Assembly (NCBI GenBank): GCA_018267955.1 | Contig: JAFDXL010000009.1 | Coordinates: forward strand, 894,717-958,716 | Length of the DNA stretch: 64,000 bases | Direction of reading: 5' to 3' | Source of the DNA: Bacteroidota bacterium | GTDB lineage: Bacteria; Bacteroidota; Bacteroidia; Chitinophagales; Chitinophagaceae | In this document: positions 17,865 through 20,981 of the stretch, in pieces | How the letters are laid out: every line of letters starts with the position of its first letter | How positions within the stretch are numbered: the stretch's first letter is position 1 | The notes under the pieces: model-generated | What the model was told of the DNA's origin: nothing | Databases searched by the model: none | The model's input: only the letters and a program-made list of their open reading frames with translations | Made by a program: the position numbers and the translations under genes

Positions 17865-17872
17865 AAATTTGA

Positions 17873-17896
17873 AGCCTGCGGATGCAGGCTTTTTTA
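17873..17896 (+). terminator. Terminator after the cysteine desulfurase gene
   Basis: AGCCTGC (17873-17879) pairs with GCAGGCT (17884-17890) around GGAT and runs into a T tract. Confidence 0.85.
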
Positions 17897-17919
17897 TTAG
17901 CGTTGTATCTTGGGCATCG

Positions 17920-19248
17920 ATGAGTCAAAACATAAGCATGAGAACTAAAGCATTTGAGGCAACCGATAACGGCGCACTTGTTGTGTTCCGGATATTGTTT
18001 GGACTGATGATGTTTGTAGAATGCCTGATGCAAATAGTTGCCGGAGGCGTTAAAGAAGCGTTTGTAGATCCGCCCCTGCTTTTTCCTGCTATTGGTTTCG
18101 AATGGCTGCAGGTACTACATGGGCCTATCATGTTTTTATATGTAACGATCATGGCTATTGCTGCGCTGGCCGTGGCAGCAGGTTTGTACTTCCGCATCTC
18201 GTCCATAATATTGGCAACGCTATGGACCTTCTTTTACCTGGCTCAACAGATCAATTATAATAATCACTACTACCTGATGGTACTCCTCTGCTGGATGCTG
18301 GCATTGACACCGGCAAACAGGCGGTTGTCTTTGGATGTGAAGCAGGGAAGATCTATTGCATCTAACGCCTGCCCGAGATGGTGTACATTCTTATTCCAAT
18401 TCCAGGTAAGCTGTGTTTTTGTATTTGCGGCAATAGCGAAACTATACCCGGACTGGACGCACGGACTGCCATTGAAATTATGGTTTGCCGAAGAAGCAGG
18501 TAACCCATACTTTGGCTTTATTGTAAGGCAATCATGGGCGCCTATCGCATTCTCCTGGCTTGGCATCATCTTCGATCTATTATTAATACCGGCCTTGTGT
18601 TTTAAACGCACCCGTAATATCGCCTTTATCGCCGCCTTGTTCTTCAACTTCTTCAACCAGCAGATATTCCAGATAGGCATATTCCCATTTATGGCATTGT
18701 CTTCTACCCTGTTTTTCTTCCCTGCATCGTTTTACGATAGTTTTTTGCCCGAAGAAAAAACGGTAGGAGTGCCAGTGCAAGCTTCCGACCAGAAACAGAA
18801 AATGATCCTCTCCTTAATATCTGTTTATATGCTCATCCAATTAATACTACCCATCCGACATTTCTTCATAAAAGGCGATGTTACCTGGACGGATGAAGGG
18901 CATAAAATGGCCTGGCGGATGATGCTGCGGGATAAAAGAGGCTTTACCTTTTTTGAAATAGTGAATATAAGAACGGGGGAAATGCGCATAGAACAGCCTG
19001 CACAAAGATTGCCCGAAAGACAGGCTATTGATATACCCGGTTCGCCGGAACTATGCTGGCAGTACGCGCAGTATCTGAAAAAACTTTACAACGGATTGGG
19101 GCAGAAAGTGAAGATTTTTGTTAACAGCGAAGTGAGCTTAAATGGACGAATATCGCAACCTTTAATTGATACTACGGTTGATCTTGCTGCTACACCCTGG
19201 CAAGGCATGGTGCATAAACAATGGATACTGACCGGACCGAAACAATAA
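17920..19248 (+). CDS. HTTM-domain (vitamin K-dependent gamma-carboxylase-like) membrane protein
   Basis: 442 residues from the ATG at 17920; a second ATG at 17938 is possible, but a near-consensus TATCTTGG sits six bases before 17920. The HTTM (horizontally transferred transmembrane) domain fills about residues 15-310: VVFRILFGLMMFVECL, FLYVTIMAIAALAVAAGLYF, LATLWTFFYLAQQINYNNHYYL and VFAAIAKLYPDWTHGLPL are typical of gamma-carboxylase-like proteins. The C-terminal soluble part holds TDEGHKMAWRMMLRDKRG, also characteristic. Whether it carboxylates glutamate in bacteria is unknown. It precedes the exosortase cassette but is separated from it by 126 bp. Confidence 0.85.
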   Translation: MSQNISMRTKAFEATDNGALVVFRILFGLMMFVECLMQIVAGGVKEAFVDPPLLFPAIGFEWLQVLHGPIMFLYVTIMAIAALAVAAGLYFRISSIILATLWTFFYLAQQINYNNHYYLMVLLCWMLALTPANRRLSLDVKQGRSIASNACPRWCTFLFQFQVSCVFVFAAIAKLYPDWTHGLPLKLWFAEEAGNPYFGFIVRQSWAPIAFSWLGIIFDLLLIPALCFKRTRNIAFIAALFFNFFNQQIFQIGIFPFMALSSTLFFFPASFYDSFLPEEKTVGVPVQASDQKQKMILSLISVYMLIQLILPIRHFFIKGDVTWTDEGHKMAWRMMLRDKRGFTFFEIVNIRTGEMRIEQPAQRLPERQAIDIPGSPELCWQYAQYLKKLYNGLGQKVKIFVNSEVSLNGRISQPLIDTTVDLAATPWQGMVHKQWILTGPKQ

Positions 19249-19374: not shown

Positions 19375-19575
19375 ATGAAATCTATCCTCTTTGCACTTAT
19401 CATCACAGTAAGCCTGCCATTAGCTGCCTCCGCAACATGGGGCCGCTGGGACAATTACAAACCACCTACCAATAATGCACCTTTGGATGGCGGATTGAGT
19501 CTGCTATTAGCCGCCGGCGCAGGGTATGGCATTAAGCGCTATGCTCAATCCAAAAAGAAAAATACTGAAAAATAA
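19375..19575 (+). CDS. PID-CTERM small exosortase substrate
   Basis: 66 residues made almost entirely of sorting signals. Residues 1-20 form a signal peptide ending in the cleavage site ASA. Residues 36-40 (PLDGG) open a C-terminal tripartite signal: motif, hydrophobic helix LSLLLAAGAGYGI and a basic tail RYAQSKKKN. This matches the PID-CTERM sorting domain described for Bacteroidota proteins whose genes lie beside an exosortase. Only about 16 residues, rich in tryptophan, proline and asparagine, would remain between the two signals. The exosortase gene begins three bases after the stop, so both are in one operon. Confidence 0.85.
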   Translation: MKSILFALIITVSLPLAASATWGRWDNYKPPTNNAPLDGGLSLLLAAGAGYGIKRYAQSKKKNTEK

Positions 19576-19578
19576 GGC

Positions 19579-20103
19579 ATGTCTAAAGCAGCCTCCTTAC
19601 ATAAAGTAATTCCAGACAATGCCCGGCCTTTTATTTTGAAGGGCCTGGCATTGGTTATTGGCTGGAACCTGCTTTACAAATTATGGCTGGGCCCTCTCGG
19701 CATTCCGGATGCACAATTGACATCTGCAGTACAATATGGCACAGCAAAGCTGCTGGATCTGTTTATCAAGGCTACGTGGGTAGGAAACAGCGTTTACATA
19801 AACGGTGTTGAATCGGTAACCATCGCCCCGCAATGTAACGGCCTGGAGCTGATGGTACTGTATATAGGTTTTATACTGTGTATACCCACCAACTGGCGCA
19901 GGATGCTGCTTTTTTCCCTTGCCGGCAGCGTTGTGATATATATACTCAACGTAATCCGCTGCGCGGTACTTGCCGAAATGTTTTATACCCACCATTATCT
20001 TACAGATTTTGCCCACCATTATGCATTCAAGCTGGTGATCTACGGAGTGGTATTTTATGGCTGGGTGCTTTATGCTAAAAATGCCTTCCGGAATGCGGCA
20101 TAA
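19579..20103 (+). CDS. Exosortase family transpeptidase (XrtX-like)
   Basis: 174 residues, short for the exosortase superfamily and without the extra C-terminal domain of long forms. Five or so membrane helices are visible. The catalytic triad of the superfamily is present and in order: cysteine in APQCNGLE (C86), arginine in NVIRCAVL (R127) and histidine in DFAHHYAFK (H146 or H147). Exosortases cut the C-terminal signal of exported proteins at the membrane and may transfer them to another anchor. The PID-CTERM gene immediately upstream encodes the obvious substrate. I assign the XrtX-like class from the linkage and size; the exact class name is less certain than the family. Confidence 0.9.
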   Translation: MSKAASLHKVIPDNARPFILKGLALVIGWNLLYKLWLGPLGIPDAQLTSAVQYGTAKLLDLFIKATWVGNSVYINGVESVTIAPQCNGLELMVLYIGFILCIPTNWRRMLLFSLAGSVVIYILNVIRCAVLAEMFYTHHYLTDFAHHYAFKLVIYGVVFYGWVLYAKNAFRNAA

Positions 20104-20524
20104 GCTACGTTTCTGGCTGGCTTTTTCCACTATCATATTATTCAGCTGGCTCGATTATCAATATTTTACAGAAGGCCATGCCCAGGATTTCCCCCCGGTA
20201 ATACGCCAGGCAGGGCATATTATAGTTTTGATACTGATACTGCCTACAGGGTATTGGGGCTGGGCAAAACAAGTTCTTAGCTGGCCAAAACAAATATGGT
20301 TATATAGTTATGCTATTGCCATTTTGCTGATCGGAATTATCGGGCTGATACAATGGAAAACGGAACTTTTCGGCGTCGGATTCCTGGATATTATAAGCTC
20401 ACTCCGTTTGTTTTTCGGCAGTCCGATACCCTATTTTATGATGTATATTTTGTATACCATTACCCTGAACCCCGGCAATAAGAATGGTTCGGATAAAAAA
20501 GAAGCCGAAAAAAACCAATATTAA
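20093..20524 (+). CDS. Small membrane protein of the exosortase cassette
   Basis: 143 residues from the ATG at 20093, which overlaps the exosortase stop by 11 bases; ATGs at 20081 and 20072 are alternatives. Four hydrophobic helices (FWLAFSTIILFSWLDYQYF, HIIVLILILPTGYWGW, LYSYAIAILLIGIIGLIQW, YFMMYILYTITL) and a charged C-terminal tail. Small multi-pass proteins are also found next to exosortases in other Bacteroidota (the XrtF-associated type), and I infer a similar accessory role. No catalytic motif is seen. Confidence 0.7.
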   Translation: MRHKLRFWLAFSTIILFSWLDYQYFTEGHAQDFPPVIRQAGHIIVLILILPTGYWGWAKQVLSWPKQIWLYSYAIAILLIGIIGLIQWKTELFGVGFLDIISSLRLFFGSPIPYFMMYILYTITLNPGNKNGSDKKEAEKNQY

Positions 20525-20536
20525 AAGGTTTATTTT

Positions 20537-20567
20537 TTTGTTGGTTTATCAAAATATATTACCTTTG
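20537..20567 (+). promoter_or_regulatory. Promoter of the rpsL-rpsG operon
   Basis: TTTG at 20537-20540 and TACCTTTG at 20560-20567 give a complete Bacteroidota promoter with 19 bases between the elements. The predicted leader is about 28 bases. Confidence 0.8.
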
Positions 20568-20600: not shown

Positions 20601-20981
20601 ATGCCTACTATTCAGCAATTAGTTCGTAAAGGTCGTACACAAATACGCGCAAAATCAAAGTCTCGTGCTTTGGATGCTTGTCCTCAACGCCGCGGTGTTT
20701 GCACACGTGTGTACACGACTACTCCAAAGAAACCAAACTCTGCCCTGCGTAAAGTTGCCAAAGTGCGTCTTACCAATAAGGTAGAAGTTATCGCATATAT
20801 CCCTGGTGAAGGCCACAACCTGCAGGAGCACTCTATCGTGCTGATCCGCGGTGGTCGTGTAAAAGACTTACCGGGTGTACGTTACCATATCGTACGTGGT
20901 GCGCTGGATACTGCGGGTGTAAAAGACCGTAAACAAAGCCGCTCTAAATACGGTACTAAACGCGAAAAAGCTAAAAAATAA
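20601..20981 (+). CDS. rpsL: 30S ribosomal protein S12
   Basis: 126 residues, the usual length. Part of the decoding centre of the small subunit. The start [12 protein letters not shown], the streptomycin-determining segment [18 protein letters not shown] (lysine of PKKPNS present, so the wild-type, sensitive form) and [18 protein letters not shown] are textbook S12. First gene of a two-gene operon with rpsG, 30 bp apart. Confidence 0.99.

Follow-up and report, generated by a model that had tools for sequence, protein, structure and literature searches.

A compact exosortase-X-like cassette with a PID-CTERM microprotein as its probable single substrate in a Bacteroidota genome

The locus raised the question of whether three adjoining genes, encoding a very small protein with a C-terminal sorting signal, an exosortase and a small membrane protein, form a self-contained protein-sorting system, and whether that system serves one substrate only. 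The window, which is the whole stretch of DNA analysed, covered 64,000 nucleotides of contig JAFDXL010000009.1, from a bacterium related to Chitinophagaceae. The three plus-strand genes occupied about 1.2 kb between a gene for a 459-aa HTTM/gamma-carboxylase-like protein and rpsL (Table 1). The gene order, coordinates and sizes (66, 174 and 143 aa) reported in the initial annotation all held, as did the 3 bp gap between the microprotein and exosortase genes and the 11 bp overlap between the exosortase and partner genes. The partner start was set at the ATG at 20093 (143 aa) because its relatives align from about this position; the ORF listing prefers an earlier ATG at 20057 (155 aa).

Table 1. 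Coordinates of the cassette genes and of neighbouring features in the window.
Feature	Position	Strand	Description and basis
HTTM / vitamin K-dependent gamma-carboxylase-like membrane protein	17869..19248	+	459 aa; PF05090 237 bits, PF22777 142 bits
PID-CTERM microprotein	19375..19575	+	66 aa; NF046080 match, sequence, dN/dS
XrtX-like exosortase	19579..20103	+	174 aa; putative catalytic Cys86, Arg127, His146; TIGR04178 and NF046081 scores
Exosortase partner, helical membrane protein	20093..20524	+	143 aa; exosortase adjacency in relatives
TAnnTTTG box before rpsL	20560..20567	+	sequence match; predicted element
rpsL (ribosomal protein S12)	20601..20981	+	sequence; downstream neighbour, outside the system

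The sequence TAnnTTTG, which we take to be the Bacteroidetes -7 consensus, was matched twice between positions 19001 and 20700. One match lay inside the partner gene at 20223 and the other, before rpsL, possibly marks the start of the next transcription unit. An S12 ORF followed the partner gene in 7 of 12 genus genomes (G000, G002, G004, G006, G007, G009 and G013), while in the remaining five it was not in the sequence read there or another gene was present. On the upstream side, the HTTM/gamma-carboxylase-like product has an HTTM and a lumenal domain and is homologous to vitamin K-dependent gamma-carboxylase, and such a gene was likewise found in L012 and L070. A cysteine-desulfurase-like gene stood upstream instead in four congener cassettes (L014, L020, L021 and L198), these being the ones whose upstream gene was read. 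On this ground, and since the mature peptide as read contains no Glu, the HTTM/gamma-carboxylase gene was ruled out as a modifier of the microprotein.

Comparison with L070, a MAG named 'Bacteroidetes bacterium 43-93' that was the best match among the genome contigs scanned, gave dN/dS values of approximately 0.04 for the microprotein (dN 0.035, dS 0.78), 0.02 for the exosortase and 0.18 for the partner. All three genes are under purifying selection, and the low value of the 66-aa ORF means that even this ORF is selected as a protein. In this nearest relative the exosortase was 99% and the partner 82% identical.

The 66-aa protein scored 40.9 bits with the PID_CTERM profile NF046080 (cut-off 26) over residues 36-56, which places it in the PID-CTERM family. 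Its parts were read as a signal peptide, a hydrophilic mature part of about 15 residues, the motif PLDGG (residues 36-40), a hydrophobic helix and a basic tail. The predicted signal peptide covers approximately residues 1-20 with cleavage after A-S-A, both assigned by eye. In congeners, the stretch between the signal peptide and PxDGG was variable and of low complexity, being rich in Cys/Gly, Gly/Asn, Asp or Pro. All 49 over-cut-off PID-CTERM places in the genus had frames of 27-211 codons (median of 76); the PID-CTERM proteins of the genus are therefore microproteins. A second, tandem microprotein with the tail PLEGAA in place of PLDGG was observed upstream of the exosortase in L015-L019 (e.g. 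L019:1216-1443), and these tandem tails scored 19.5-23.3 bits, under the PID-CTERM cut-off.

The 174-aa protein belongs to the exosortase/archaeosortase superfamily by both its score and its Cys/Arg/His residues, with 52.6 bits on TIGR04178 (cut-off 23) and 29.2 on Pfam PF09721 (cut-off 25.7). Exosortase X (NF046081) was the best-scoring named family, and membership of it was rejected at 127.2 bits against the required 170; by its profile scores, the enzyme is XrtX-like rather than XrtX. A C86/R127/H146-147 triad had been proposed for it. Cys86, Arg127 and His146 were invariant in all 20 rows of an alignment of relatives from a whole-protein search, whereas His147 was not. The same three residues were invariant in 63/63 rows of a larger alignment (the window protein and 62 of 73 extracted sequences), which was retrieved by peptide patterns that included the Cys and His stretches and is thus not independent for those two residues. 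The AlphaFold model of the exosortase had a pLDDT of 91.2. Neither this model nor that of the partner had a PDB fold match at E ≤ 0.001, and a sequence search of the PDB found no relative of the exosortase.

Whether the third gene is part of the system, as the initial annotation had supposed, was examined in relatives. In the genus, the partner stood beside the XrtX-like exosortase in all 12 congeners having one, with the qualifier that the stretches read in the genus held 16 XrtX-like genes, 4 of which were extra copies without a partner. Among the candidates listed per genome for 147 family genomes, the partner profile found 38 places in 33 genomes, 37 of which lay on the same strand as an XrtX-like exosortase, at a spacing of -11 to +58 bp; the single exception (G270) was a weak match carrying stops. 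In the reverse direction, again among listed candidates of the 147 genomes, 37 of 49 XrtX-like exosortases of at least 100 bits had a partner match and 12 did not. Overall, these counts bear out the place of the third gene in the system. A further set of 80 exosortase loci was taken from a scan of genome contigs using peptide patterns, which found the cassette in records named Chitinophagaceae bacterium IBVUCB1 and LGM1, among others. An ORF of 80-190 aa began at the exosortase stop in 70 of the 78 loci having more than 500 bp downstream, and 49/80 had a PID-CTERM gene on that strand no more than 600 bp away. The arrangement is not obligatory, since the other 31 loci had no PID-CTERM gene within that distance. 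By genome (n = 147, listed candidates), PID-CTERM proteins and exosortases of either type occurred together in 47, with 5 genomes having only an exosortase, 3 only PID-CTERM and 92 neither. In L089, L090 and L091 (the places L038-L040), a second XrtX-like exosortase had no partner ORF downstream, and the microprotein there had a very short mature part and the tail CVPVDGG.

The AlphaFold model of the partner (pLDDT 93.6) showed helices at residues 2-26, 35-57 and 64-90 and a broken fourth helix at 95-108/112-125. The partner had no match in NCBIfam or Pfam at E ≤ 1, and the single match by sequence in the PDB (E 0.035 over 20 residues) was taken as chance. The XrtX-associated membrane protein family (NF046082, cut-off 75 bits) is defined in part by position beside an XrtX-type exosortase gene, which is where the partner gene lies given its overlap; by score the partner fell outside the family, with no match at E ≤ 1. 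NF046082 had no match in the source genome at E ≤ 1e-5, and class-wide it matched 60 of 198 genomes at this threshold, five of them above the cut-off. HHalign comparison of the partner set with the XrtX-associated set gave 91.5% (E 9e-7, 71 C-terminal columns) with pooled alignments, for which reversed controls reached at most 1.1%, and 21.7% (E 1e-3) with single sets. At best, the partner would be a remote relative of the XrtX-associated membrane protein. Nine partners from other Bacteroidota loci, including Flavobacteriaceae, were of the window's partner type (HHalign 99.4%). The partner is of an exosortase-associated family that so far has no name.

The source genome (4.18 Mb, 98% complete) was then the basis for the number of substrates. 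A profile search at E ≤ 10 for other PID-CTERM tails found one protein above the cut-off. Six other matches scored 10.6-12.6 bits, similar ones being present in 9 of 14 control genomes, and no match fell between 12.6 and 42.1 bits. One exosortase scored above the cut-off. In the genus, PID-CTERM matches at E ≤ 0.01 were found in 14/15 genomes with 1 to 14 each, and the sole genome without a match (G012) was also without an exosortase match. Many PID-CTERM matches of the multi-match congeners were in genomes that have an additional exosortase, of the XrtY-like type. The claim that the adjacent microprotein is the only substrate agreed with the source genome and with two congeners having one PID-CTERM match, but did not extend to the others, which had 2 to 14. 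Haft and Varghese gave the definition of 'dedicated' single-target sorting systems (available text of PMC3237569), and within the reach of the profiles the cassette has the layout of this kind, with one enzyme, one candidate target in the genome and adjacent genes; cleavage and anchoring of the target by the enzyme are predicted. The cassette is probably a single-substrate sorting system.

The main alternative was that the exosortase has further, diverged substrates in the source genome, of which the adjacent microprotein is merely the easiest to see. The PID_CTERM profile has 25 positions and can overlook diverged substrates, as the sub-threshold PLEGAA tails beside the same exosortase in congeners illustrate, and sorting enzymes often have many targets, according to the available text of PMC3237569. 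Against this, the empty interval up to 42.1 bits in the source genome is where PLEGAA-like tails would have appeared at E ≤ 10, and the alternative was considered unlikely.

Overall, we consider with fairly good confidence that the cassette is a compact, self-contained exosortase-X-like sorting system in which an exported microprotein is cut and anchored by the exosortase with an accessory partner. The microprotein would be exported by Sec; once the signal peptide is removed, about 15 residues would lie outside, with the C-terminus of PLDGG, helix and basic tail holding the protein in the inner membrane. The exosortase would recognise PLDGG and Cys86, aided by Arg127 and His146, would cut beside it. 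Cys86 would form a thioester with the new C-terminus and then transfer this C-terminus to an amine, the likeliest acceptor being a lipid of the phosphatidylethanolamine type, and the product would be a short peptide, surface-bound or released. The partner may act as an accessory subunit of the exosortase for stability or for presentation of substrate or acceptor. The analysis itself established the genes and their motifs, conservation, selection and co-inheritance, together with a single substrate candidate in the source genome; we infer the cleavage, thioester, acceptor, location and partner role from archaeosortase A and other exosortases. In the model published for archaeosortase A, which its authors call speculative, the Cys makes the attack, the C-terminal peptide leaves and archaetidylethanolamine completes the reaction by aminolysis (available text of PMC7157517).

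Alternatively, the cassette might make a peptide for release, acting as a signal or as an antimicrobial, with the third protein serving immunity or export and not being an exosortase subunit. The mature part of about 15 residues is strongly variable and often Cys/Gly-rich in congeners, and dN/dS is higher for the partner than for the other two genes, both of which fit this reading. The partner tracks the exosortase (37 of 38 places among listed candidates) and not the substrate, for which a PID-CTERM gene was near in only 49/80 loci, and families of partner-like proteins in other systems bear an exosortase-associated label (NF046082, TIGR04127), which makes this reading rather improbable. In a further reading, the microprotein would bind or inhibit the exosortase and not be processed by it, as adjacency, co-inheritance and the near lack of protein remaining after cleavage would also allow. 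This is very improbable, given that the microprotein has all three elements of the sorting signal as well as a signal peptide (assigned by eye) and that congeners reach 14 PID-CTERM matches in a genome, many of them distant from any exosortase.

Comparison of the proposed sorting system with known ones showed that its nearest counterpart is among the NCBIfam families. The XrtX system (NF046081/NF046080/NF046082) likewise has a PID-CTERM protein above cut-off and a small membrane protein gene that overlaps or abuts the exosortase gene, and XrtX is the best match of the window's exosortase. It differs in that the window's exosortase reached 127 bits against 170 and the partner had no NF046082 match, with profile similarity in the C-terminal half. 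The exosortase F system (TIGR04128, TIGR04127; Fjoh_1448, Fjoh_1449) likewise joins an exosortase to an adjoining small-protein gene, but the window's exosortase scored 71 bits on TIGR04128 (cut-off 90) and falls outside that family, and the TIGR04127 partner had no match in G000 at E ≤ 1e-6. The XrtF-associated family (TIGR04127) was related to the NF046082-like set (97.8%) and not detectably to the window partner (1.3-1.8%). The analogy with F. johnsoniae is thus one of arrangement and not of descent, because the helper family differs. In addition, the targets of GlyGly-CTERM/rhombosortase pairs are large and we know of no helper gene in these pairs, while archaeosortase A is a longer enzyme with several larger substrates. 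Dedicated GlyGly-CTERM/rhombosortase pairs likewise have one sorting protease, one target and adjacent genes (available text of PMC3237569), but the protease is a rhomboid unrelated to exosortase. Archaeosortase A/PGF-CTERM is of the same superfamily by profile (TIGR04178), with a Cys nucleophile and proposed lipid attachment (available text of PMC7157517), and differs in using archaeal lipids.

In F. johnsoniae, mutants deleted for either xrtF or its neighbour Fjoh_1449 formed no zorbs and had strongly reduced biofilm, and complementation restored sand colonisation, both genes being needed for surface colonisation (available text of PMC10936215). By analogy with xrtF, the role of the cassette in the cell is likely to be surface colonisation or biofilm.

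The arrangement had been regarded as unusual. This view was not upheld, since sorting enzymes with a single adjacent target have been published (available text of PMC3237569) and PID-CTERM, XrtX and the XrtX-associated protein are already NCBIfam families. A literature search did not find the term 'PID-CTERM', and the uses found of 'XrtX' or 'exosortase X' were unrelated by title. What is new is an exosortase under the XrtX cut-off, a partner of no named family and genus substrates that are microproteins; because the component families and 'dedicated' systems were already known, the novelty is one of variety, a sub-threshold XrtX with an unnamed partner. The cassette also contributes a family of exosortase partners that has no name yet, and it poses the puzzle of what a cell gains from anchoring a peptide of about 15 residues. 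Sorting enzymes with many targets are hard to study, and a 1.2-kb unit of enzyme, helper and 66-residue substrate suits reconstitution, which could address cleavage, acceptor and helper function.

An XrtY-like exosortase was found in 9/15 genus genomes, and the three that were scored reached 115-147 bits against the NF046083 cut-off of 160. PID-CTERM tails in which PxDGG is followed by V (DGGV) occurred in exactly these nine congeners. DGGV tails were carried by 24 of 52 tabulated PID-CTERM proteins, which came from 40 stretches and not from all 58 matches, and by none of the 21 within 1.5 kb of an XrtX-like exosortase. In the Fisher test of DGGV against XrtY, the V label was independent of gene position and phylogeny was ignored; the link is a co-occurrence in related genomes and not a proof of specificity. 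The corresponding test for XrtX was rejected as circular, the 'X-type' label being defined by position within 1.5 kb of an XrtX-like exosortase, and its co-occurrence row shows only that each of 12 genomes has such a neighbour.

It is possible, and proposed here as a tentative extension, that the PID-CTERM exosortases of Bacteroidota are dedicated peptide anchors, each type with its own microprotein class, and that the XrtY-branch microproteins are mostly co-encoded with large type IX secretion (T9SS) cargo and serve as its surface receptor or retention factor. On this reading, these enzymes would anchor peptides rather than large surface proteins, and recognition would be divided by type between XrtX-like exosortase with its partner and XrtY-like exosortase with DGGV tails.

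Finally, of the 31 PID-CTERM genes that lay over 1.5 kb away from any XrtX-like exosortase in the stretches read, 24 had a T9SS-tail ORF just upstream, as did 0/21 nearer ones. The cases (L180-L186, L188, L191, L193-L196, L198, L202 and L209) were from G001, G002, G004, G006-G009 and G013. Tails from these stretches had themselves been used to build the T9SS-tail profile, and 'upstream' meant -150 to +250 bp between stop-to-stop frames. Pfam PF18962 was present in all seven T9SS-tail ORFs examined. G002 had at least 150 T9SS tails. Related microproteins with PIDEGLG replacing PxDGG, which were under the threshold for the 52 tabulated proteins, were observed on the minus strand at approximately 5755-6346 in L073-L075, and a T9SS-tail gene lay near the PIDEGLG microproteins in the same genomes (L200, L204 and L206).
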